From Planctomycetota bacterium (GTDB lineage Bacteria; Planctomycetota; Brocadiia; Brocadiales; Brocadiaceae), in the NCBI GenBank assembly GCA_016873165.1, contig VGXV01000012.1, positions 1-64,000 of the forward strand: a stretch of DNA of 64,000 nucleotides, given 5' to 3'. The stretch's first letter is position 1; each line of letters begins with the position of its first letter. The notes under the pieces are model-generated. The model ran no database searches. It had not been told where the DNA came from and worked only from the letters and a program-made list of their open reading frames with translations. The position numbers were made by a program, and so were the translations under genes. Positions 23,612 to 36,792 of this stretch are shown here, piece after piece.

Positions 23612-24508
23612 TTATTGGAATAACTGCATTATGCTTTGAGGTCCTGCATTCGCCTGAGCCAACATCGCGCTTGCAGTCTGTTGCAATATCTGAAGCTTTG
23701 TCGCCTCTAATTGTTCATATGCCATATCAGCATCCTCAATACGACTCCTTGCTGCCTCCGTATTCGTCCTTGCCACCGTCAAGCTGGTTTCCTGATACGA
23801 CAATCTGTTGACTACGGAACCTATATAACTCAATGCCTCCGATACATCAGAAATCGCCTTGTCTATATTTCCCATCAAAGAAAGTGCAGATGCGTTTGAG
23901 GTAACCGCCCTGCCTGCTGTACCAACACTTACTCTCAATCCATTAGCCTTAAAGTTCGTATTGCCCGACTCAAGACTTACATTTGCCTTCCTCAATAAAT
24001 CAAACTTCAATACATCATTCGTGCTGCTTGCTCCGGCGCCTATCTGGAATTTGAACTGTACGCTGCTTGCCGACCCTGTTGTTGAATTTCCCGTGCCAAA
24101 TATCGAATTAGAGTTCCATGTCGCCTGGGTAACTTCAAGATCAATTTGTGTTGCCAACGCTGACAGTTCTGACTGAATAGCACTACGCTCTGCAGTCCCT
24201 AACGAATCATCTGCAGCTTGTGTTACCTTTGTCTTCATCTGGGTTAAAATATCAAGAATGTTGTTTAAATGTCCTTCCGCAACCGCCATTAAATTCTTTG
24301 CTGATCCTATGTTTGCAAGGGCCTGCCCAAGTCCTTGTGACCTGGCATTAAATTTCTTGGCAATTGTATAACCGGCAGCGTCATCTGCTGCGTTATTAAT
24401 CCTTTTGCCTGTCGCAAGCCTTAGCTGAGATACCGACATGCGACCGTTAATGTCATTCAACGACTTCAACGCATTTAAAGCATTAATATTCGTATTAATC
24501 CTACTCAT
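23612..24508 (-). CDS. Flagellin
   Basis: 298 residues, the filament subunit exported by the flagellar type III system. The N-terminal D0/D1 part is classic: INTNINALNALKSL, LRLATGKRINNAADDAAGY. The C-terminal D1/D0 part has SRIEDADMAYE, TKLQILQQTASAMLAQAN and ends QSIMQLFQ. The variable middle (about 140-215) is short and Ser/Thr-rich, with many possible O-glycan sites. An AAGGAG ribosome site lies 6 nt before the ATG. A sigma-54 promoter lies 104 bp upstream. It is a single-gene unit. The glycan/sulfotransferase cluster starts 2 kb away beyond decayed mobile DNA, so filament modification is conceivable but unproven. Confidence 0.97.
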   Translation of the reverse strand: MSRINTNINALNALKSLNDINGRMSVSQLRLATGKRINNAADDAAGYTIAKKFNARSQGLGQALANIGSAKNLMAVAEGHLNNILDILTQMKTKVTQAADDSLGTAERSAIQSELSALATQIDLEVTQATWNSNSIFGTGNSTTGSASSVQFKFQIGAGASSTNDVLKFDLLRKANVSLESGNTNFKANGLRVSVGTAGRAVTSNASALSLMGNIDKAISDVSEALSYIGSVVNRLSYQETSLTVARTNTEAARSRIEDADMAYEQLEATKLQILQQTASAMLAQANAGPQSIMQLFQ

Positions 24509-24806: not shown

Positions 24807-25716
24807 TCAGCATTGTCTGGTTAGGAAATTGCGTAATGCGGGTGTTGAAAAAATGAGAAAAACATATTGTTTTGAGCAGATAATTTACTTGATAAATCAG
24901 CAAAAAGCGCACGCACGAATTTTTCGTAAAAATCATTAAATATAGGAGTTACGAAAAATGCCGCGCACCTTTCGCCCTCACGACAAAAAGCAAAACGTAC
25001 CTTCATTTCGCGAATTATGGCAGCCTGTCGAAAACGTTTTTATCCGTATGCCTCCGCTTGAGGCACGGGGAAATAGACCTTTGCAAATGAATTTTGAACA
25101 CCAGCTTAAAGCAGCGAGCATCCTGCCCAGGGAACATGCCGAGTTGGGAAATCTTGTTGCTATTGACGGCTCACTCATTGATGCTGTTCTCTCTATGCAC
25201 TGGGCCGACTATCACAAAGGTTGCAGAAAGGCCAAAGTACATATACGATGCAATTGTGCTTCTTGGCACTGCCGGAGTCAATCAGACCAAAAAGCAACTG
25301 CGGGGTATTGGCTACCGCGTTGATAACAAGGTATACTGGATAGCCACGAACCGATTTGACCTCTCTGCGGAAGAAGTCGCAACCGTCTATAAGCTCCGTT
25401 GGAATATTGAAATATTTTTCGGCTGGTGGAAACGCCATCTCAAAGTCTATCACCTTATCGCAAGGAGCGAACAAGGGCTAATGGCATAAATACTCAGTGG
25501 CCTTATAACTTATCTGCTTCTTGCAATCTATTGCTACAACCATCACAAAGAAAAGGTGAGTATTAAAATGGTCAGGGAGTTGCGCATTAAAATACAAAAC
25601 GAAGCCCGCAATCTCGACGTTGATTTACCAACTACTGACAGGCATCAGGCAGATACTCATAATCTCAAAGAACAACATTGGCGCTCTTTCGCAATTTCTT
25701 AACCGGACATTGCTGA
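24807..25716 (+). mobile_element. Decayed IS4-family insertion element (about 910 bp)
   Basis: Imperfect terminal inverted repeats of 27 bp: left 24807-24833 begins TCAGCATTGTCTGG and the reverse complement of the right end 25690-25716 begins TCAGCAATGTCCGG, with 3 differences in 27. They enclose a single transposase pseudogene. No target-site duplication is visible. Intact relatives should be about 0.4-0.5 kb longer, matching the internal deletion in the gene. Confidence 0.85.
24958..25702 (+). pseudogene. IS4-family transposase, internally deleted and interrupted by a stop
   Basis: The N-terminal part (from MPRTFRPHDKK) includes VAIDGSLIDAVLS with the first catalytic Asp. After KGCRKAKV near 25235 the frame changes and jumps to IYDAIVLLGTAG, which in the family lies well over 100 residues later, so the middle with the second Asp is deleted. 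The tail keeps the full Y-2-R-3-E-6-K signature (YKLRWNIEIFFGWWK) that defines IS4. An in-frame TAA at 25487-25489 interrupts the end where relatives have Gln, and the frame then runs on to 25702. Three lesions make it inactive. Confidence 0.88.
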
Positions 25717-26562: not shown

Positions 26563-27441
26563 TTATTTATCAATGATAGTATCATAGCCAAGCTTTTGCA
26601 TTATTTCTTCTTTCTGTATTTGCAAATAAAGTTCCCGCAGGGAATTATCTTTTATAAAGGTAAATTTATTGCCGGATAACACATTTTTCGAGACGGCATG
26701 GAGAGAGGAAGTTTCGGCGGGCAGATCGGTAAAGCGCGCAATTTTTTCAAGTGTGTCTGCCGGGCAATCGAGGAAGGTTTCGTATCGGATATGGAGTATG
26801 TTTTCCTTCCATTCTTCATTGAGAGAAAATGCTTTTTGCACATAATCCTTCCATAGCTGAATCCCTTCGTGTATGTTCTGAAGCCGTACAGAGTCCTGAT
26901 ACAAGACCTTTCCGAATACGAAACGTTCTTTTAATATATTTTTCCAGTTTTTCTTGTAGTTGTTTTGGATTTCCAACTCCCTTTTCATCGCGCTGTTTGC
27001 AACGTCAATGGGATTCCGGTAAATATGCAAGAGTTTTGGATGGGGGAAAATGTCTTTCCAGACATCAATGGTAAAGGTGTTTCTTGGGTCTTTCCAGCCC
27101 CAGGGAAAGTCGATATGCCGGATGTCTTTGTATCGCAGAAAATTTCCAAAGCCCAGATATTCAAGCCTTCTCGTGCCTTTTAAGTGTTGTTTTAGAACAC
27201 AAAGGACTCTTTCCTTAAAGACAGGATTTATAAAATTAAAATTGTGCGGATTATCCCATGATGCGTTAGCCTGACGCAGCAGCCAGTCGTTTAATTTGAA
27301 AAAGAATAACGACTCGTCATTTTCCTGTTTTCTTGCGCCGATAAATAATCCCAATTGTTCCAGCAGCGAGGCAAGCATTGTGGTGCCGGAACGGTGCATG
27401 CCCATGATTATTACCGGTTGCAGATATTTTGTATTCATCAA
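26563..27441 (-). CDS. Sulfotransferase (PAPS-dependent), cluster gene 9
   Basis: 292 residues. The 5'-phosphosulfate loop is GMHRSGTT at 14-21, and the 3'-phosphate region is KLLHIYRNPIDVANSAMKR, the two hallmarks of PAPS-binding sulfotransferases (Sulfotransfer_3 type). A WGWKDPRNT segment lies between them, typical of bacterial members. It should move sulfate from PAPS to a hydroxyl of a glycan or similar acceptor in the cytoplasm. It is the last gene of the nine-gene minus-strand cluster, 94 bp after the glycosyltransferase. No downstream terminator is seen before the antitoxin remnant. Confidence 0.85.
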   Translation of the reverse strand: MMNTKYLQPVIIMGMHRSGTTMLASLLEQLGLFIGARKQENDESLFFFKLNDWLLRQANASWDNPHNFNFINPVFKERVLCVLKQHLKGTRRLEYLGFGNFLRYKDIRHIDFPWGWKDPRNTFTIDVWKDIFPHPKLLHIYRNPIDVANSAMKRELEIQNNYKKNWKNILKERFVFGKVLYQDSVRLQNIHEGIQLWKDYVQKAFSLNEEWKENILHIRYETFLDCPADTLEKIARFTDLPAETSSLHAVSKNVLSGNKFTFIKDNSLRELYLQIQKEEIMQKLGYDTIIDK

Positions 27442-27535
27442 TCTTATAAAAGGTTATATTTGTTGTATACTGGACAACCCCCTGGCCTCCCTTTATTAAT
27501 GGGGATTTTGGGAATAATGGTAGTTTGCAGTTTAT

Positions 27536-28531
27536 TCATTTCAATACTTTTTCAAAGACTATTAAATGTTCTTTTGCGCTTTTTTGCCATGAAAAATTTT
27601 GCGCACGGGTTAGTCCCTTTTTTCTTAATGTATCACGTAAGGAGACATCTTCTCTCAGACGCTGCATTGCATGGGCAATATCATGTTCTGAACGCGGATT
27701 TACGAAGAGCGCGGCGTCATTTGCTATTTCTGCACATGCTGTGCTGTCTGATGTTATTACCGGACAACCGCATGCCATTGCCTCCAGAACAGGCATGCCG
27801 AACGTTTCATGCAGGGAAGGAAATACAAACCCAAGGGCGCCTCTGTACCATTTTGCCAATTCAGAGGGAGCGCACTTTTCATGAATATGTCGTATTCCTT
27901 TGCTATGAATTTTGGTCTTATAATCCGGCACTATCATGACAAGTTCAGGTTTTGCATTATTGGAAAGATTTTCATATGCACGGATAATTCTGTCAACATT
28001 TTTTTTGGGATGATATTGTGAAACATGGAGGAAATAGTTTTCAGATTCGGTTGTAACGGTGTTGTCCTGATTAAATGTCGTGTGGTCAATGCCGTGATAA
28101 ATAGGGTATATTTTTTCGCGCGGAATGGTAAAAACATGGGACACTTCCCGTGCGGCAAATTCGGAAACGGTAATGACTGCTGATGTCTTTTCCCGAAACC
28201 ATTTCCACGCGGATAATGTTGTACGGTTTTTCAATTTGCATCTGATTGCCTGCAAAAAAGAGGTGTTCACTTCATTCCATTTCATGGTAAACAGCGCCGC
28301 TCCATGAACGGTTGCAACTATTTTCGCTCTGATATTCTTATATATATCTGGCGGCGTATGGTTTCCTGCAAGGCCAGGTTCCCAGACAATATCACAGTTT
28401 GCAGGAACGGGGTCGGATTCCGTAAAAGAAATGAAATCTACCCCGAGGTCTGATAGTTCTTTCTTAATATTATCGCGATATATTTTCAGGCTAAAGGGAA
28501 TTTGGGTGCGGGTAAGGACGGCGATTTTCAT
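27536..28531 (-). CDS. Glycosyltransferase family 4 (GT-B), cluster gene 8
   Basis: 331 residues. Two Rossmann-like halves: the N-terminal acceptor half (MKIAVLTRTQIPFSLKIY, TVHGAALF, VITVSEFAAREV) and a donor half with YFLHVSQYHPKKNVDRIIRA and FVFPSLHETFGMPVLEAMACG, the E-x7-E motif of retaining GT4 enzymes. It builds a glycosidic bond from a nucleotide sugar. It is shorter than usual for GT4 but complete. The neighbours on both sides are sulfotransferases (15 bp upstream, 94 bp downstream), which suggests that the sugar it adds or the chain it extends becomes sulfated. Confidence 0.9.
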   Translation of the reverse strand: MKIAVLTRTQIPFSLKIYRDNIKKELSDLGVDFISFTESDPVPANCDIVWEPGLAGNHTPPDIYKNIRAKIVATVHGAALFTMKWNEVNTSFLQAIRCKLKNRTTLSAWKWFREKTSAVITVSEFAAREVSHVFTIPREKIYPIYHGIDHTTFNQDNTVTTESENYFLHVSQYHPKKNVDRIIRAYENLSNNAKPELVMIVPDYKTKIHSKGIRHIHEKCAPSELAKWYRGALGFVFPSLHETFGMPVLEAMACGCPVITSDSTACAEIANDAALFVNPRSEHDIAHAMQRLREDVSLRDTLRKKGLTRAQNFSWQKSAKEHLIVFEKVLK

Positions 28532-28546
28532 TGAATTTGCAAAAGA

Positions 28547-29443
28547 TTAATTTGAACACCAATACGTTAAATCTCTTCCAAGCAAGTCGCTTAACTGTTT
28601 GATTTCCGGTTTAAATTCCTCCTGCAATATTTTTCGTAATTCCGGTTTCATGGGGATACGGGCTTCGTGGCGAATATTCAGATTCCACATGCTTTTTCTC
28701 ATAAGGCTGCGCACCGGATGCGGTATTAGTTTTCTTGACATATTGAGCAAAAAAGGGGGAGGATTTTGCAATACATTTCTCAGAAAAATGCTCCTTGCAC
28801 GTTTGTTTGGATTGACCAATTTTATATCATCACGGATATTTTCATCTACTCCCAGAAAACGGAATGTGTCTCTTAAAGACATTTGAGGATCATTCTTTAA
28901 ATCGTCAAAAATTATTATATGAACAGCATTTTTATCAAATATTTCAAAATATCTTTTTACCTGTTGCGTGTACTTTGCCGTTTCCCGGTAGAAAAGCCCT
29001 TCAACGGGATACGCATTTTTTGGCAGGAATAATCCTTTTTTTCTTTCGTCTTCCTTTCTCAGCGCTTCTTCAAAATCGGTTATATCTTCGCATCCGTTAA
29101 AAAGATATTGACTGTGTAAGGAATATAGCATATCGACAGGGTTTCTTAGCATAATGATAATTTGTGCCGAAGGTGAAAACTCTTTAATCTCGTATGCCGC
29201 CCGTTTTGAATAAAGGTACCATACGGATGCTTCTCCTGCTCTTTTCTCATTTTTTACTTTTTGGAAAAAAGATAAATAGAGTGTTTTATCCCTGACAAAG
29301 TCGGGATGATATAAATCCGTCCCGAAATAATGTAATTCTTTTCTGTCGGGCATAAAAATTTCCGGATGGTTTTTCAAGTGGCTGTGTAAAAAAGTAGTCC
29401 CGCATTTGGGAGCGCCTACAATAAAGAAATCAGGATGTTTCAT
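28547..29443 (-). CDS. Sulfotransferase domain protein, cluster gene 7
   Basis: 298 residues, of the Sulfotransfer_1 (heparan/ester sulfotransferase-like) type. PAPS loop GAPKCGTT at 10-17, then MPDRKELHYFG, and the 3'-phosphate motif IIIMLRNPVDMLYSLHSQY with Arg and Ser. The pattern with KELHYF is typical of bacterial and animal glycan O-sulfotransferases. No membrane anchor, so it acts in the cytoplasm on a lipid- or nucleotide-linked acceptor before export. It lies 24 bp after the ABC-like gene and 15 bp before the glycosyltransferase. Confidence 0.9.
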   Translation of the reverse strand: MKHPDFFIVGAPKCGTTFLHSHLKNHPEIFMPDRKELHYFGTDLYHPDFVRDKTLYLSFFQKVKNEKRAGEASVWYLYSKRAAYEIKEFSPSAQIIIMLRNPVDMLYSLHSQYLFNGCEDITDFEEALRKEDERKKGLFLPKNAYPVEGLFYRETAKYTQQVKRYFEIFDKNAVHIIIFDDLKNDPQMSLRDTFRFLGVDENIRDDIKLVNPNKRARSIFLRNVLQNPPPFLLNMSRKLIPHPVRSLMRKSMWNLNIRHEARIPMKPELRKILQEEFKPEIKQLSDLLGRDLTYWCSN

Positions 29444-29467
29444 TTTATTTTACCAAGAATAAAGATT

Positions 29468-31363
29468 CTATAGATCATCATCGTCCAGGTCATCATCCAG
29501 GTCAAAATCATCGACTTCTTTTTCGGTGGTCTTCTTATAGTCCGGTATTTGTATATCTTTGATGGCAGTTTGATTTGTTTTAAACCAGTCAATTGAACCC
29601 AGGCCAATAATTTCACCACGCGCAATTGCCGCGATTATATCTTCGCGGTAATTGCCCACAGCGGTATGATCTTTATAGAAGACTATTGTAATTATTTTAT
29701 CTGAACACTGGTCGAGGAAATAATTACGGGCTTTATCGGACAGTGTTCTCAGCCCTTTTTCCTCAATCATTATCCAGTTGCAATTCGATTGAAGGGCGTT
29801 GATTAGTGTTAACGAAAATTTCAGGTCGGGGTCTATTCTTCTCCAAATATCCGGAGGTAAAGAAGCGTCCAGATTATCCGGCAACTGTTCGATGTATTTT
29901 TCCCACAAGCTTATTTTCTCTAAATCTTTCTGTAAATTATCAGTAGTATATTTTTTTGAATATCTCAAGGATTCCCGTAAGGAACGTTTCGGGAGAAATT
30001 CGTAATCAGCCGTTACGAACCACATGGATTCAAGAGCGTTTTTTGTCTTTTCCGCAGAATGCCCAAGCATACAGCCGGTCAAAAACCCCAATGTATAGCG
30101 ATTCAGTGCAATGGGGCTCAGGAGACTGATCCGACTTCCTTTCTTTAGTTCCCAGGATTCCAGAGAACCTTCTATTGCAGGCGGAGCGGGTGTATTAATA
30201 GTATAGTTTGCCGGAGGCGCTATCCCTGGCATTGGAGTAATGATAGTTGCATTGAGAAATTGGAAATATCTTCTGATCTGCGGATAAAGGCGGTTGATTC
30301 CGGTTGCTTTCCTGTTTACCTGTCTCATGTTGGTTAACATAAAGCGTAACGCGATCAAATAGACAATTAATTCTCCCCATCCCTTTCCTTCGGAAATAAT
30401 GGATTTGCCCAAAATGAGCAATATTAAGAAAATTGCCGTGGCAAGAACAATATTACTGATCAAATGGCTGTACTCCAATGATTTCAACCTGCCCTCATAG
30501 GCATCATGGAATTTTTTAATTGGACCGGAGGAAAAGAAGTTTTTTTCAAGCCATTGTTCATTCTCTGAAGCCGAAACTACCCATGCCTTTTGGTGTTGTA
30601 TAATCCGTAAATATTCTTTGCTTGTTTTTTTTGCAAATTTTTCAAATGACGCAGAATTTCTCGCGGCATAGACGCTTACTTTATAAAGAAAAAAGGCAGA
30701 GATGCCCATTAGGGTAAAGTTTAAAAGGGTCAGGAGCGAATTGATATATAATAAGGTGGCAATTGCGACAATAAAGGTGGCCAATGGAATAATAGTATCG
30801 AGAATCATCCATAACGCCCTGCTGCAAAATCTTGAATCCCTCCTTGCCAGACGAACGATAACTTTGTCATCACTGAAATCCTGTTCAACAGGGGTTCCGA
30901 TTTTAAAGCCCGAACCAAATAAAAGAAAAATCCTCTTTGCACAAAATTCTTCGTATCTTCTCCTTAATTTCAAACCCTTTGACTTTGAAAAATAAATAGA
31001 CCATGCGGCGATCAAAAGTGAAAACAATATTGACAATCCGCATAAGATGAGAAGTAAATTGGAGGTGCGTGCATTGAATTCATAGTGCAGGAGTTTGATA
31101 GTCTTGCCGCTTTGCATTGCTCTGGCGTAATAAATGGCAAGGCCAATCGTCCATACCTGAAATGATATCCCGATAAAATTGGTAAAAAGGATGAGGAATG
31201 ATTCTTTTCTGAATCGCCAGATGGAATCCCCCACTAACCATTTGAGCACCAAACAATACTGGTCAAAGGTTTTCAGGAAACGATCATATCGGGTCTTTAA
31301 AAAAGAGTATATGTGTAACAATTTTGTATTTTTAAGAAATATATTTCGTCCGCTCGATCCCAA
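29468..31363 (-). CDS. ABC-exporter-like membrane protein with dead nucleotide-binding domain, cluster gene 6
   Basis: 631 residues. The N-terminal half has the six-helix plan of type I ABC exporters (helices near 55-80, 105-130, 190-235, 305-345). The second half (about 395-600) follows the ABC ATPase in outline: LSPIALNRYT at the Walker A place, WFVTADYEFLPKRSLRESLR at the Q-loop, then LPDNLDASLP, and NCNWIMIEEKGL at Walker B. But Walker A lacks GxxGxGKST, the LSGGQ signature is absent and the Walker B DE is EE after a changed strand. It should not hydrolyse ATP. The tail is a run of Asp (DDDLDDDDL). The TTG start is weakly supported and sits in a hairpin. Role may be structural or regulatory, or with an active partner elsewhere. 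Confidence 0.75.
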   Translation of the reverse strand: MGSSGRNIFLKNTKLLHIYSFLKTRYDRFLKTFDQYCLVLKWLVGDSIWRFRKESFLILFTNFIGISFQVWTIGLAIYYARAMQSGKTIKLLHYEFNARTSNLLLILCGLSILFSLLIAAWSIYFSKSKGLKLRRRYEEFCAKRIFLLFGSGFKIGTPVEQDFSDDKVIVRLARRDSRFCSRALWMILDTIIPLATFIVAIATLLYINSLLTLLNFTLMGISAFFLYKVSVYAARNSASFEKFAKKTSKEYLRIIQHQKAWVVSASENEQWLEKNFFSSGPIKKFHDAYEGRLKSLEYSHLISNIVLATAIFLILLILGKSIISEGKGWGELIVYLIALRFMLTNMRQVNRKATGINRLYPQIRRYFQFLNATIITPMPGIAPPANYTINTPAPPAIEGSLESWELKKGSRISLLSPIALNRYTLGFLTGCMLGHSAEKTKNALESMWFVTADYEFLPKRSLRESLRYSKKYTTDNLQKDLEKISLWEKYIEQLPDNLDASLPPDIWRRIDPDLKFSLTLINALQSNCNWIMIEEKGLRTLSDKARNYFLDQCSDKIITIVFYKDHTAVGNYREDIIAAIARGEIIGLGSIDWFKTNQTAIKDIQIPDYKKTTEKEVDDFDLDDDLDDDDL

Positions 31364-31376
31364 ACTCCTGTTTGGG
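31359..31376 (-). promoter_or_regulatory. Hairpin covering the ribosome site and start of the ABC-like gene
   Basis: CCCAAAC and GTTTGGG form a perfect 7-bp stem whose 4-nt loop AGGA is part of the AGGAG sequence; the TTG start lies in the 3' arm. It could limit translation or reflect a different true start downstream. Confidence 0.4.
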
Positions 31377-31410
31377 AACCAGCGGTAAAGAGATGAAAAA
31401 AGAAGGTATT

Positions 31411-32196
31411 TTATTTTTTATAGCCCCAGAAATCACAGTAGTGAGGCATTAAATCAACAATTTTGGTTGCTTCTGCAACTAACCTTTTATCCTGTTCCTG
31501 CTGCCATCGATGCACTCTTTTGTCCGTAATAATGCTGCCGTGCAGGTCATATTCGTCTTTCCTCTTAACATTTGCCGCGTTGAATCCCCCTATTGTACCG
31601 GTATCAGGGATTTCACTTTCTACAAATGCCTTTATTTTTGGATATATTTCCCTATTTGTGCACAATTCCTCATATTTTACCTTAATACATTTTGCTTTTT
31701 TATACATTTCCATTTGTCTGTCAAACTCATTATTAAGGTGTGTCGATAAGGTTTCCGGAGTTAATTCTTTTTTCCAGCTTCCCTTTCCCTGTTGTAATCT
31801 GTGATAAACAGAAATATAGATATCCCTGGGGTCTCTTGCCGTCAGGATAATCCTCATGTCCGTAAACACCTTGTAATAATTTTGCCAGCCTCTGTTATGA
31901 ATCTCTTTTACCCCTATCTGATGGATGTGGGTGTCAAGTTTTGGCAGTAAATCATTTTTTAAGGCCTTGATAATGGAATTGTCTTCTTCGGTCAGATATT
32001 TTTGCTTAAATTCTTCAAGATTAATTCCCAATTGCAAAAACAATTTAAGATCATTCTCCCGTATCCGAAATTTGTTCTTCCCCAAATTCGGTTCCAGAAA
32101 GATAAATGAGTATGGCAGCATGGTTAATGCCTCGCTGAGCACCGTGCCGCCCGTCCTTCTTAATGAGGCAATATAAATAAATGGTTTTTTCTGCAT
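31411..32196 (-). CDS. Sulfotransferase-like protein, cluster gene 5
   Basis: 261 residues. The N-terminus IYIASLRRTGGTVLSEALTM carries a PAPS-loop variant (R-R-T-G-G-T, 13-18), and RIILTARDPRDIYISVYHR gives the 3'-phosphate Arg/Ser motif. The C-terminus has HRWQQEQDKRLVAEATKIVD, common in bacterial sulfotransferases. Length is short but both cofactor sites are kept. It lies 26 bp after the propeller-like gene and 47 bp before the ABC-like gene. Confidence 0.8.
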   Translation of the reverse strand: MQKKPFIYIASLRRTGGTVLSEALTMLPYSFIFLEPNLGKNKFRIRENDLKLFLQLGINLEEFKQKYLTEEDNSIIKALKNDLLPKLDTHIHQIGVKEIHNRGWQNYYKVFTDMRIILTARDPRDIYISVYHRLQQGKGSWKKELTPETLSTHLNNEFDRQMEMYKKAKCIKVKYEELCTNREIYPKIKAFVESEIPDTGTIGGFNAANVKRKDEYDLHGSIITDKRVHRWQQEQDKRLVAEATKIVDLMPHYCDFWGYKK

Positions 32197-32222
32197 CGGG
32201 ATATCGTTCTTAAAATTATCTA

Positions 32223-33257
32223 TTAACTACAAGCCAGTAAACCATGCACACATACGGCGATATCTTGTGAATATGAGAATATATCTAAGAGTTTTCCTTT
32301 TTCAATATCGAATTCCGCAATGGTTGCGGGAGAGAATCCCACAAGGATGCGAGACTGATCGACAGGGCTGAGGCCGCGTAAAAACAGCGGACTTTTTATT
32401 TCATGTTCTCTATTCATAAAATTGGAAAAAAGGTTAAATACACGAAAGAAAGAAGATGACTTTGCCTGAGGAAACTGGCTTGCAGACTGGTATATAGCGT
32501 TTATTTCAGGAAAGTCTAACAAATTCAGAGATCTCACCAATTTGCCGTCCTGTGTATACACCATAACCCTTTTTCCCTTGGTATCGTTAATCAATATTTT
32601 GTCTCCAAAAAATACAAGGTTGTGACACCCGGCAATAGATGGGTCTTCCAGCACAAAACGGTTCGTTGTTGTATTATAAACGGCGCCAAACCGGTTCAAA
32701 AGAACGTATAACTGTTCCTGATGAACTGCAACCGCATTTAAATGCGTATGACTTGGCTGCCGTGCAGGCAATACTTTCAACCAAAGCATTCTGTTGTCGA
32801 TTGTTTTATCAATTTTTAACGGAGTGAGTGAAAAATGTTTCTTTAAGTTTGCATCTTCTCTTGCCCACCAGCAATCAATATAATTCCCTTGTGTATCAAT
32901 GCCGATAATACAATCTATTGCAGTGGAAGTAAGCCAGATTACATTATCATTGAGAAAAATTTCGTGCAATCCGACAAATAAATTGTTTGATATTTTTCCC
33001 TTTGGCCTAAGGAAAGAATCAAAAAGGTGCAAACTATGATAGGTTGCGACATAGATCGTGTTATTGATCTTAACGATGCCTCTTCCACCCCTTGAGTTGC
33101 CCCTTGGATTAGCATCGTCTTTTTCTGTAATGAGGGGGTCGGTGGGTGATAAAATTGCTTTTGCATGTACTTTTTTTGTTGACCAGTCGATGTGAACCAA
33201 TTCTCCGCCTTGTGAAATCGGTCCTTGCCGGACAACCGTGCTAAAATATACGTCCAT
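32223..33257 (-). CDS. Beta-propeller-like cluster protein (TIGR03032/DUF4915-like), cluster gene 4
   Basis: 344 residues with no signal peptide. Repeated short strands with turns (TIYVATYHSLHLFDS, VIWLTSTAIDCIIGIDTQG, QLYVLLNRFGAVYNTTT, DKILINDTKGKRVMVYT, RILVGFSPATIAEFD) suggest a beta-propeller of five to seven blades. HLNAVAVHQ, CHNLVFF and PLFLRGLSP resemble motifs of the TIGR03032/DUF4915 group, which I recall near sulfotransferase and glycosyltransferase genes. It may bind or modify the glycan; no catalytic motif is evident. It sits mid-operon with gaps of 42 and 26 bp. The family call is tentative. Confidence 0.6.
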   Translation of the reverse strand: MDVYFSTVVRQGPISQGGELVHIDWSTKKVHAKAILSPTDPLITEKDDANPRGNSRGGRGIVKINNTIYVATYHSLHLFDSFLRPKGKISNNLFVGLHEIFLNDNVIWLTSTAIDCIIGIDTQGNYIDCWWAREDANLKKHFSLTPLKIDKTIDNRMLWLKVLPARQPSHTHLNAVAVHQEQLYVLLNRFGAVYNTTTNRFVLEDPSIAGCHNLVFFGDKILINDTKGKRVMVYTQDGKLVRSLNLLDFPEINAIYQSASQFPQAKSSSFFRVFNLFSNFMNREHEIKSPLFLRGLSPVDQSRILVGFSPATIAEFDIEKGKLLDIFSYSQDIAVCVHGLLACS

Positions 33258-33299
33258 TCACTTGTTTCTCCCCAAAAGGTATCTGAATCAAAATAGTAT

Positions 33300-34454
33300 T
33301 TACAGGCCAAAGGCGTCTTTTGCGTGTTGTATCGTATTTTTCCATGAAAATATTTTTTGAGATTCCACAGTATTCCTTGTGTATTCCCCGATGGTCTCCG
33401 GAACTGATAATTCTTCTATTGCGCGCACAAGGCCGTCAACGTCCGGGTCAAAGCAGGGAATCCCGGAAAATGTGTAACCTGTCTTATGCGATTTTACGAG
33501 AATGCCATTATACCTGTCCTGAATTATTTCATTATGAGGTGGAATATTATTGGTAATTGTGGGTAGTCCAAAAGAGATAGCTTCATAAAAATGCTGCCCT
33601 AATCCTTCCCACCTGCTTGGAGCAAGGCAGACGTGGCATGAGGAAAATAAATCATAATATTCCTTTGCCGTTAAATCTTCTTTCATGTGGATAATTCTTT
33701 TGTCGGCGATATCATTGATATGTTCCGTATTTGACCGTTCTCCCTGTGCCTTGATAATGAGTCGTATATCGGGATTTTTTACCTGTGTGAAGGCTTTCAC
33801 TGTTTTTCGTATGGGTTTTCTTCCGCCCTGAAAGCCTCCGGGAAAATAAAAATAGATCGCATCTTTGCGCTTTTCTGATACGGAATTGAGAAGTTCCGGG
33901 TGGCATCCCCACGGCACCCACGGGCTGTCAACGCCAAAGTCTGCATATCGCACGCATTCGCATTTGTTGAGTGAATAAATTATGTCATAAGCGTCTTTTG
34001 CGCCTTTTAAAGGGCGTATTCTTGAATTGCTCAGAAAACATCTTCCTAAATTTTTCCAGCGGAACGGCTTCAGGGGTATTTTTTTGTAGCCGGTCAGATG
34101 TTGTATTCCGAAACTTTCCCATATAAATCTTCCGATCGTTTTTATTCCCATCGCGCGTAAAGCCGCAATTTCAGGGAATTGCATATTTGAATCGAAAAAT
34201 ATCACCGCCAGTGAGTTTTTTCTCGCCCATTCTCTGTATTCTTTTAAGGGAATGACAAAATTGGAGGCATGGGTAACATTTTCCTGGTCCCATACGTCTG
34301 ATTTGGCAATGTGTTTCGGCAATGCGTCATTATCTCTTGTAGGCCTCGCAAGCACAAAGGTTTTATGTCCGAGTTCATCAAAAATGGAGCGAAGGTAGCG
34401 CGAAACGGTAGCCTGGCCTCTATTTAACCAGGTACTGACTATTCCGATATGCAT
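33300..34454 (-). CDS. Glycosyltransferase (GT4-like), tandem copy B, cluster gene 3
   Basis: 384 residues, paralogue of the next-upstream gene. Start IGIVSTWLNRGQATVSRYL, donor-half motifs YFYFPGGFQGGRKP, LIIKAQGER and CLAPSRWEGLGQHFYEAISF with the acidic E-x7-E-type pair. The two copies share an identical block of well over 30 residues around that motif, and differ more in the N-terminal acceptor half, a pattern expected when duplicates keep the same donor but change acceptor. It lies 21 bp behind copy A. Confidence 0.87.
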   Translation of the reverse strand: MHIGIVSTWLNRGQATVSRYLRSIFDELGHKTFVLARPTRDNDALPKHIAKSDVWDQENVTHASNFVIPLKEYREWARKNSLAVIFFDSNMQFPEIAALRAMGIKTIGRFIWESFGIQHLTGYKKIPLKPFRWKNLGRCFLSNSRIRPLKGAKDAYDIIYSLNKCECVRYADFGVDSPWVPWGCHPELLNSVSEKRKDAIYFYFPGGFQGGRKPIRKTVKAFTQVKNPDIRLIIKAQGERSNTEHINDIADKRIIHMKEDLTAKEYYDLFSSCHVCLAPSRWEGLGQHFYEAISFGLPTITNNIPPHNEIIQDRYNGILVKSHKTGYTFSGIPCFDPDVDGLVRAIEELSVPETIGEYTRNTVESQKIFSWKNTIQHAKDAFGL

Positions 34455-34475
34455 GATTGTGTCTCTCTTGTTTTT

Positions 34476-35636
34476 TTATAATCCAAAAGTTTTTTTGATT
34501 TGTTCCGTGGTAGTATCCCATGAATATTTTTTTTGCAACCGTATCGTATTCTTTGAAAGTTCTTCTATTTTTTTCATGTCAGATAGTTCTTCTATTGCCC
34601 TTGCAAGATCATTTACGTCAGGGTCATAAATGGGTATCCCCGACTGTTTATAACCGATTTTAACTGATTTTACAAGTAATCCGTTATTTTCATTTTCGAT
34701 GACTTCGTTATGAGGAGGGATATTATTGGTGATTGTGGGTAATCCGAAAGAGATTGCTTCATAAAAATGTTGTCCTAATCCTTCCCATCTGCTTGGAGCC
34801 AAACATACGTGACAGGATGAGAATAAATCGTAGTATTCTTTTGCAGGGATATCTTTGACAATTTTTATGAGCCGTGAGTCCGAATAGGCATCAATGTTTT
34901 CGGTGGTAGTTCTCGTTCCCTGAGCTTTTATAATAAGGCGGATATCCGGGTTTTTTACCTTCATGAAAGCTTCAACGGTCTTTTTCAGGGGTTTTCTTGC
35001 CCCCTGAAAACCGCCGGGAAAGAAAAAATAAATCGCATCTTCCCGCTTTTTTGATTTTACTTCAAGAAGTTCCGGGTGGCAGCCCCACTGAATCCATGGG
35101 CTGTCAATTCCAAAATTTTTATACCGGGTTTGTTCACATTTGGTAAGCGAATATACGATAGTAAATGCTTCCTTAGCTCCGGCAATATCCTTGTTGGCAA
35201 AGCATTCTCCTGCATATCGATAAAAAGATTTCACATCTCCGGTTTTAAATATGGTTTTTAGACTTTTTGCGTGTTTTTCTCCAAAACATTCCCAGACGAA
35301 ACGTCCGTAAGTTTTTATTCCCGTTGAACGCAAATGTTTAATTTTTTCATATTCATTATTTTCGTCAAAAAAAATGATCCGGAGTGAATTTTTTTCTGTC
35401 CATCCCAGATACTCTTTCAGGGGGATAAAAAAATGTGAAGCCTTAGTGACGTTTTTCTGGTTCCATACGTCAGTTGTGGAGATAAAATTTGGCAGATCAT
35501 CGGTATCGCTTGTAGGACGGGCGAGTACGAATGTGTGATGCCCAAGATTGTCAAGAACAGACCGGATATAACGGGACACGGTGCTTTGCCCCCGGTTCCA
35601 CCATGAGCTTACTATCCCTATGTTAAGTTTTTCCAT
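34476..35636 (-). CDS. Glycosyltransferase (GT4-like), tandem copy A, cluster gene 2
   Basis: 386 residues. IGIVSSWWNRGQSTVSRYI at the start, TFVLARPTSDTDDLP, GFQGARKPLKKTVEAFM, and the same CLAPSRWEGLGQHFYEAISF block as copy B. Predicted to be cytoplasmic or peripheral, adding a sugar from a nucleotide donor. It follows the first sulfotransferase by 12 bp. The high likeness of the pair in the donor half points to a fairly recent tandem duplication. Confidence 0.88.
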   Translation of the reverse strand: MEKLNIGIVSSWWNRGQSTVSRYIRSVLDNLGHHTFVLARPTSDTDDLPNFISTTDVWNQKNVTKASHFFIPLKEYLGWTEKNSLRIIFFDENNEYEKIKHLRSTGIKTYGRFVWECFGEKHAKSLKTIFKTGDVKSFYRYAGECFANKDIAGAKEAFTIVYSLTKCEQTRYKNFGIDSPWIQWGCHPELLEVKSKKREDAIYFFFPGGFQGARKPLKKTVEAFMKVKNPDIRLIIKAQGTRTTTENIDAYSDSRLIKIVKDIPAKEYYDLFSSCHVCLAPSRWEGLGQHFYEAISFGLPTITNNIPPHNEVIENENNGLLVKSVKIGYKQSGIPIYDPDVNDLARAIEELSDMKKIEELSKNTIRLQKKYSWDTTTEQIKKTFGL

Positions 35637-35648
35637 TTTTGAAAATAA

Positions 35649-36629
35649 TTAAATGAGATATTCATATCCTGCCGCTTTGAGTTCTTCCTCCATATTAATT
35701 TCTTTTACTGCTTTGCGCCAGTGAGGATTGTCTGGCGCGAAAAAAGAAGGTGTTCGCTGGATATTTTTCTGTACCCATTCAAGAACGTGTTTCGGCAGGG
35801 GTAGTTCCATGAATTCATATAATGTTTTTACCGTTTGTTCCGGTTCGGAAAGCAGGTTTTCATGCCGAAAGAGAAAATAGTTGTTTCCGAATAACGCTTG
35901 TCCGACGTCGTGAGTTCTTCGAAACATAATTTTCCACAGAAGCATAACCCTCATATACGCCTTGCATTTGCTGAGATAAGAATATTCAGGAGTTTTCAGC
36001 AGTATGTCGGATAATGTGCGGCTTGCGCCGATCAATACTTCCGGACCGCTTTCGAAGAAACTATTCTCGTTTGAGAAATTGTCGCGCAGTTTTTGTTTTT
36101 TCCCGAAAAAAAACGATGCCGTGACAGAACGTGGGTCACGTATAAGATGAACAAATTTTGCTTTTGGGTCGATTTCCCATAACACCTTAATTTTTGAAAA
36201 CATCCGGGTAAACTTTATCATGGTATGTTCTGCCTGTAAAATCATGAATTTTATGTATTCTCTTGCGTAATCAGGCAAATCAGTTTCAAACTCAAGCGCT
36301 GGTTCTCGTGGCGCGCCGTAATTGAGCAAATTTTCTTTTTCTATCACCGGCAATTTTAATGACGTTAAATTTTTGATGGATTTACGGAAGGATTCTTCCT
36401 TATTTATCTTTTCCAGATGAAAATGAGGATATTTTTTCATAAAAGAAGCACGGCATTTCCTTACATTTTCATAAAAATCTACCTGTCTCATTCTGCTGCC
36501 ACCCCCGAGTGTATCATCGATTGCAGTAGATAAGGGTTCATAGTAACAGTTAAATCTTCCGTCTTCCCATAGGATATCGAATGCAATAGTCGTTCCGGAA
36601 CGCCTCATCCCCTGCATGAAAATATTCAT
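35649..36629 (-). CDS. Sulfotransferase family protein, cluster gene 1
   Basis: 326 residues. PAPS loop GMRRSGTT (7-14) near the N-terminus and KFVHLIRDPRSVTASFFFG for the 3'-phosphate. NCYYEPLS after the loop is common in bacterial sulfotransferases with large acceptors. The C-terminal part has RHENLLSEPEQTVKTLYEFM. It is the first gene of the nine-gene cluster; the divergent rnpA starts 163 bp away, and that gap contains a hairpin (ATAGTAT/ATACTAT, about 36658-36682). Confidence 0.87.
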   Translation of the reverse strand: MNIFMQGMRRSGTTIAFDILWEDGRFNCYYEPLSTAIDDTLGGGSRMRQVDFYENVRKCRASFMKKYPHFHLEKINKEESFRKSIKNLTSLKLPVIEKENLLNYGAPREPALEFETDLPDYAREYIKFMILQAEHTMIKFTRMFSKIKVLWEIDPKAKFVHLIRDPRSVTASFFFGKKQKLRDNFSNENSFFESGPEVLIGASRTLSDILLKTPEYSYLSKCKAYMRVMLLWKIMFRRTHDVGQALFGNNYFLFRHENLLSEPEQTVKTLYEFMELPLPKHVLEWVQKNIQRTPSFFAPDNPHWRKAVKEINMEEELKAAGYEYLI

Positions 36630-36792
36630 GTGCTAAACCTCAATGATGATGAATGATAGTATAGAAAACTTTCATACTATATTTGTATTGCGCTATTAAT
36701 GTCAAGATGTTTTAATTCTTCATAGATAATAGATAGGGCAGGGATTTTGTGAGAGAATTTTCGGGTGGGACATGAAACATTATTGATTTGGT

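Follow-up and report, generated by a model that had tools for sequence, protein, structure and literature searches.

Which product does a compact set of sulfotransferase and glycosyltransferase genes make, and how might that product cross the membrane when the one ABC-exporter-like gene among them has lost its ATPase motifs? The question is raised by positions 26563-36629 of the first 64,000 nucleotides (hereafter called the window) of contig VGXV01000012.1 (GenBank assembly GCA_016873165.1), which is contig C12 of a 4.05-Mb genome (G000). The presumed operon consists of four genes for sulfotransferases dependent on 3'-phosphoadenosine 5'-phosphosulfate (PAPS), i.e., ST1, ST3, ST5 and ST9, three genes for glycosyltransferases of family GT4 (GT2, GT7 and GT8), a propeller-like gene (PROP6) and the exporter-like gene, ABC4. 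The host is assigned to the anammox genus Kuenenia, since PROP6 is 89% identical to its counterpart in Candidatus Kuenenia hertensis YC6. ABC4 belongs to a phylum-wide, sulfotransferase-linked family, and the evidence for this is given first.

Ancestry and sulfotransferase linkage of ABC4

As a single sequence ABC4 yielded no significant Pfam or NCBIfam family, and its alignment with MsbA (hhalign) was collinear with a non-significant E value of 0.19. Once 12 homologues, drawn from four planctomycete families, had been combined into a profile, this matched BmrA (E=1.1e-6, profile positions 170-593 to chain positions 144-583) and MsbA (E=2.8e-4) collinearly over both the transmembrane and the nucleotide-binding domain (NBD), and ABC4 is therefore regarded as a descendant of ABC exporters; TM_0288 was matched as well. 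None of the 12 homologues retains the Walker A signature, Walker B, LSGGQ or the H-loop histidine. The place of Walker A is taken by LNRYTL in most of them, an arginine (R422) at or beside the place of the Walker A lysine is invariant (12/12), and 11 homologues have a clear acidic C-terminal tail. An earlier interpretation based on the letters alone (the sequence-only reading) had noted an exporter-shaped gene without working ATPase motifs, and the profile confirms this description.

The ratio of nonsynonymous to synonymous substitution rates (dN/dS) of ABC4 was 0.11 in comparison with the Kuenenia-group genome G030, which corresponds to purifying selection. Against the same dS, the membrane half had a dN of 0.038 and the pseudo-NBD half one of 0.093, and the columns invariant across the 12 homologues are mostly found in the membrane half. 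To judge from this pattern of conservation, a motif-less exporter with a better conserved membrane half points to a function in the membrane. The possibility that ABC4 is a decaying pseudogene was ruled out by the dN/dS value and by the reading frame, which is open in nearly all homologues (the sole exception, in G038, is broken by a stop). A comparison of ABC4 with plasmids gave no match.

ABC4 was found in 10 of the 62 genomes of the order, all belonging to one family, and a profile search of 392 Planctomycetota genomes added four more, which belong to three further families (G105, G330, G399 and G405). These genomes were grouped into nine lineages (Kuenenia, g2, g3, g8, g11 and the four distant genomes). 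Sulfotransferase genes occur within about 10 kb of ABC4 in all nine; in G399, two Sulfotransfer_2-like open reading frames (ORFs) directly follow ABC4 and a third lies upstream, one of them scoring above the Pfam cut-off. Regarding the controls, sulfotransferase genes were present at none of 11 Wzy_C loci without ABC4 (in one of these, L047, the genome has ABC4 at another place) and in one of 40 other 20-kb stretches from six genomes (20 of the stretches from the four distant genomes), which were picked at spaced coordinates rather than drawn at random. For the four distant genomes alone the comparison is 4/4 against 1/20 stretches, with a hypergeometric probability of about 5e-4; since genomes of one lineage are related, a Fisher value from these counts is not to be read at face value.

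Several lineages also encode, in or near ABC4-type loci, proteins of about 700 amino acids that share a conserved motif of the RHDVD type close to the N-terminus (L059:5580-7748, L060:413-2566, L073:2597-4720 and L074:11114-13138). The three that were scanned have a sulfotransferase-like domain in the middle.

Enzymes, gene order and the missing steps

All nine ORFs described by the sequence-only reading were recovered on the minus strand, with intergenic gaps, in order of position, of 94, 15, 24, 47, 26, 42, 21 and 12 bp. Pfam likewise places the seven predicted enzymes above its curated cut-offs, the four sulfotransferases in the PAPS sulfotransferase families PF00685/PF13469 (each protein exceeds both cut-offs) and the three glycosyltransferases in Glycos_transf_1. 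Each of the four sulfotransferases has an intact 5'-phosphosulfate loop (GMHRSGTT, GAPKCGTT, SLRRTGGT and GMRRSGTT) and an intact 3'-phosphate motif (RNP/RDP...S), and three adenosine 5'-phosphosulfate (APS) kinases are encoded in the genome for PAPS supply. The nearest structures to ST3 in the Protein Data Bank (PDB) were 3rnl and, weakly, heparan sulfate 3-O-sulfotransferases. The pair GT7 and GT8 is a tandem duplication, and other genera have one copy. The propeller-like gene is present as described; its family assignment is weak (15.2 bits against DUF4915, with a cut-off of 35), and PROP6 had no significant match in the PDB. Neither PROP6 nor ST5 was found in any genome without ABC4.

A search for the same order in other planctomycete genomes had been proposed as a check. 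The three Kuenenia-group genomes (this one, G030 and G031) share most of the order and further genera share part of it, and it is therefore not due to chance. In G030, rnpA borders the cluster on the ST9 side as it does here, and in G031 the flanks are different. Both carry an additional ST9-like gene beside GT8 (42% identical to ST9; L021:15289-16206 and L022:15937-16893) that is absent from the operon in the window; the ST9 orthologue proper is missing from the G031 cluster, in which GT7 and GT8 are separated by two small additional ORFs (L022:13913-14760) resembling a HEPN/nucleotidyltransferase pair. In comparison with G030, dN/dS was 0.07-0.13 for all nine genes, similar to two neighbouring genes. 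Among other genera of the same family, G013 shows the order GT7/8-ST9-ST5-PROP6-ABC4 and G012 the order GT7/8-ST9-ST5-PROP6-Wzy_C, its ABC4 being located at the start of another contig. A conserved cluster of the sulfated-glycan type, as proposed before, is thus supported; the product itself is a prediction.

The operon was said to contain no obvious polymerase, flippase or working ABC exporter, which holds: the Wzy_C orthologue of Kuenenia lies on contig C1, no Wzx was found among the scanned cluster proteins (the operon in the window and the G020 and G041 clusters), and ABC4 is motif-less. The further idea, that the product may be a short oligosaccharide because a polymerase is missing, does not follow, since sister genera carry Wzy_C and a WcaJ-type initiator within the cluster and Kuenenia keeps the orthologues at two other loci. 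The order in G020 is ST5-PROP6-Wzy_C-ABC4-GT4-Gfo/Idh-initiator, with the initiator (Bac_transf/CoA_binding_3) three genes downstream of ABC4. In G041 it is ST-kinase-like-GT4-ST-ABC4-GT-GT-Wzy_C-GT4-initiator-TPR, and Wzy_C carries a frame break. In the g11 clusters an HprK-related kinase-like protein is encoded between a sulfotransferase and a GT4 gene (L026:6708-7820).

In Kuenenia, the Wzy_C orthologue (58% identity) lies beside glycosyltransferase genes of the types GT2 and GT4 and the initiator orthologue (77%) is located outside the operon on contig C22, where it matched TIGR03023 (undecaprenyl-phosphate glucose phosphotransferase) with 529 bits at a cut-off of 411. Both genes are present in all ten ABC4 genomes of the order. 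Relatives without ABC4 have the same Wzy_C locus with heptosyltransferase-like and Kdo-kinase-like genes; since it resembles a locus for the lipopolysaccharide (LPS) core, Wzy_C may be a ligase. Directly after the Kuenenia initiator, a tetratricopeptide repeat (TPR) protein with a transglutaminase-like domain is encoded (L039:8334-10079, contig C22), a pairing kept in the relatives inspected.

Proposed pathway and competing explanations

The operon is tentatively interpreted, with somewhat less than even confidence, as the elongation and sulfation module of an undecaprenol-linked sulfated surface-glycan pathway, with ABC4 as a translocator of the lipid-linked intermediate that does not itself hydrolyse ATP. 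A WcaJ-type transferase encoded on contig C22 would load the first sugar onto undecaprenyl phosphate, GT8, GT7 and GT2 would lengthen the lipid-linked chain in the cytosol, and ST9, ST5, ST3 and ST1 would transfer sulfate from PAPS. The sulfated lipid-linked glycan would then pass across the membrane, ABC4 serving as its dedicated translocator without ATP hydrolysis of its own (pulled by ligation or driven by a partner), and Wzy_C, from its LPS-core-like locus, would ligate or polymerise the glycan; accordingly, an undecaprenol-linked glycan that is ligated or polymerised may result. What we infer from these genes is the substrate, the sequence of the steps, the translocation, the product and the role of ABC4. 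Direct inspection of the sulfotransferases and glycosyltransferases showed N-termini without obvious export signals, which argues for assembly and sulfation on the lipid carrier in the cytosol, and a sulfated glycan assembled there must cross the membrane. The translocator role is favoured by the descent of ABC4 from an MsbA-like exporter and by the stronger conservation of its membrane half.

Several observations weigh against this interpretation. Wzx proteins are encoded elsewhere in the Kuenenia genome and in most other ABC4 genomes; G013 (91% complete), by contrast, had no PF01943 match, which counts in favour of the translocator. The Wzy_C loci of relatives without ABC4 also lack a flippase in the stretches read, so the lack of Wzx in the cluster is not diagnostic; the argument that this lack proves ABC4 to be the flippase was dropped for the same reason. 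PglK, which among the ABC flippases of lipid-linked oligosaccharides has been studied best, requires ATP hydrolysis (PMC5395944), and ABC4, which without the motifs is no normal ATPase, cannot work exactly like it. An AlphaFold model of ABC4, computed from two sequences only (the window and K. hertensis), reached a pLDDT of 41 and a pTM of 0.24, too low to be of help. Finally, the glycan product of the operon is itself predicted from gene content. A more far-reaching version, that the ABC4 family has permanently lost its ATPase and still translocates or gates sulfated lipid-linked glycans, with the pseudo-NBD around R422 perhaps sensing PAPS, 3'-phosphoadenosine 5'-phosphate (PAP) or the sulfated glycan, is less likely than not.

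The most serious alternative, somewhat less probable than the main interpretation, retains the sulfated-glycan pathway and makes ABC4 a scaffold or regulator in the membrane whose pseudo-NBD and acidic tail bring the cytosolic sulfotransferases and glycosyltransferases to the lipid-linked substrate, while a Wzx encoded elsewhere flips the product. The loss of every ATPase motif from an NBD region still under purifying selection would suit such a role, as would the tail kept in most homologues, the Wzx genes present elsewhere in most genomes and the fact that ABC4 follows the sulfotransferases and not the Wzy_C locus; a precedent is BcsE, a protein of cellulose secretion whose ATPase-like domain has lost Walker A (PMC7439463). 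The membrane half of ABC4, however, is better conserved than the NBD half, and the sulfotransferases and glycosyltransferases are basic but not unusually so for the window. Docking by charge through the acidic tail was rejected, the basicity of the enzymes being ordinary for the window.

That ABC4 is instead the inactive partner in a heterodimeric exporter, drawing its energy from an active ABC half-transporter whose gene lies elsewhere, is improbable. Heterodimeric exporters with one degenerate half exist, and the match of the ABC4 profile to TM_0288 is consistent with this type; yet the degenerate halves of known heterodimers keep most motifs, whereas in ABC4 all are gone from every homologue, and the ABC4 loci read showed no active ABC half-transporter.

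Similarly improbable is a protein target, the operon then supplying a sulfated form of a protein-linked glycan to the S-layer or to flagellin. In favour of this, protein O-glycan ligases belong to the Wzy_C family, and a weak match to TIGR03097 was obtained. The Kuenenia S-layer is heavily O-glycosylated, but its O-glycan is described as methylated, and the passages of PMC5088730 on this glycan report no sulfate. Flagellin had been named among the proteins to be assayed for the glycan; the flagellin gene beside the cluster is not adjacent in the other two Kuenenia genomes and here is separated from the operon by a remnant resembling an insertion sequence, so this link was not upheld. Although sequence does not reveal which acceptors PF00685/PF13469 proteins use, action of the sulfotransferases on unrelated small molecules, the cluster then not being a glycan locus, is very improbable in view of the conserved linkage to GT4 genes, Wzy_C and a polyprenol-phosphate sugar transferase and of the weak resemblance of ST3 to heparan sulfate 3-O-sulfotransferases.

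A transporter-derived protein that lacks ATPase motifs, is conserved across the phylum and has sulfotransferases in its vicinity in every case would add a new type of component to glycan export, and ABC4 would be a marker gene for sulfated-glycan loci in Planctomycetota. The finding is somewhat more interesting than first stated because the family is both ATPase-dead and sulfotransferase-linked. Compared with the Wzx/Wzy pathways for O-antigen and exopolysaccharide, the WcaJ-type initiator, the GT4 chain builders and, in sister genera, the linked Wzy_C are shared; the differences are the absence of Wzx from the scanned cluster proteins, the several sulfotransferases, the ATPase-dead ABC4 and, in Kuenenia, the split of the genes over three loci. 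The ABC4 profile is collinear with MsbA and BmrA over both domains, whereas PglK, Wzk and MsbA differ from the ABC4 homologues, which lack Walker A, Walker B, LSGGQ and the H-loop and have an acidic C-terminal tail. BcsE shares the retention of an ATPase-fold domain without Walker A in a polysaccharide secretion system (PMC7439463), but it is RecA-like with REC-GGDEF, not an ABC protein, and involves no sulfation. The O-glycan of the S-layer protein Kustd1514 is a surface oligosaccharide of the same genus, differing in the methylation noted above (PMC5088730). Sulfated glycosaminoglycan-like polymers are known from the extracellular polymeric substances (EPS) of anammox granules (Boleij 2020, as cited in PMC10483923), and the citing passages of PMC10483923 assign neither producer nor genes; the operon is a concrete Kuenenia candidate, unproven, for the source of these glycans. 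The passages of PMC4807772 on Kuenenia and sulfotransferases do not describe the operon.

Feature coordinates and neighbouring loci

The features of the operon and its surroundings are summarized in Table 1. The promoter-like site fits a single operon transcribed from ST9 to ST1, although a consensus match alone is no proof of function.

Table 1. Positions within the window of the nine genes of the presumed operon and of nearby features.
Feature	Positions	Strand	Description
ST9	35649..36629	-	PAPS sulfotransferase, first gene of presumed operon; PF13469 61.6 bits, PF00685 44.1 bits; GMRRSGTT loop
GT8	34476..35636	-	GT4 glycosyltransferase, tandem paralogue of GT7 (~63% identical); PF00534 65.2 bits
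GT7	33300..34454	-	GT4 glycosyltransferase; PF00534 55.6 bits
PROP6	32223..33257	-	Propeller-like; DUF4915 15.2 bits, under cut-off
ST5	31411..32196	-	PAPS sulfotransferase; PF13469 33.1 bits (cut-off 27); SLRRTGGT loop
ABC4	29468..31363	-	Derived from ABC exporters, lacks ATPase motifs; C-terminal tail acidic; start codon uncertain
ST3	28547..29443	-	PAPS sulfotransferase; PF00685 59.4 bits
GT2	27536..28531	-	GT4 glycosyltransferase; PF00534 88 bits
ST1	26563..27441	-	PAPS sulfotransferase, last gene of presumed operon; PF13469 75.6 bits; GMHRSGTT loop
Promoter-like site TTGACA-18-TATAGT	36676..36705	-	Directly upstream of ST9; top consensus match of the region, 11/12 positions
Flagellin gene	23612-24508		Beside the cluster; not adjacent in the other two Kuenenia genomes
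Probable insertion-element remnant	24807-25716		Between flagellin and operon; 30-nt inverted arms, 87% complementary, 850 nt between

The insertion-element remnant contains overlapping ORFs in different frames (24958-25323 and 25094-25489), resembling a broken transposase. Elsewhere in the same genome, a second sulfotransferase cluster (L030:5542-20000, contig C26) has its own Wzx and Wzy_C genes together with radical-SAM-like and GT4-like genes.

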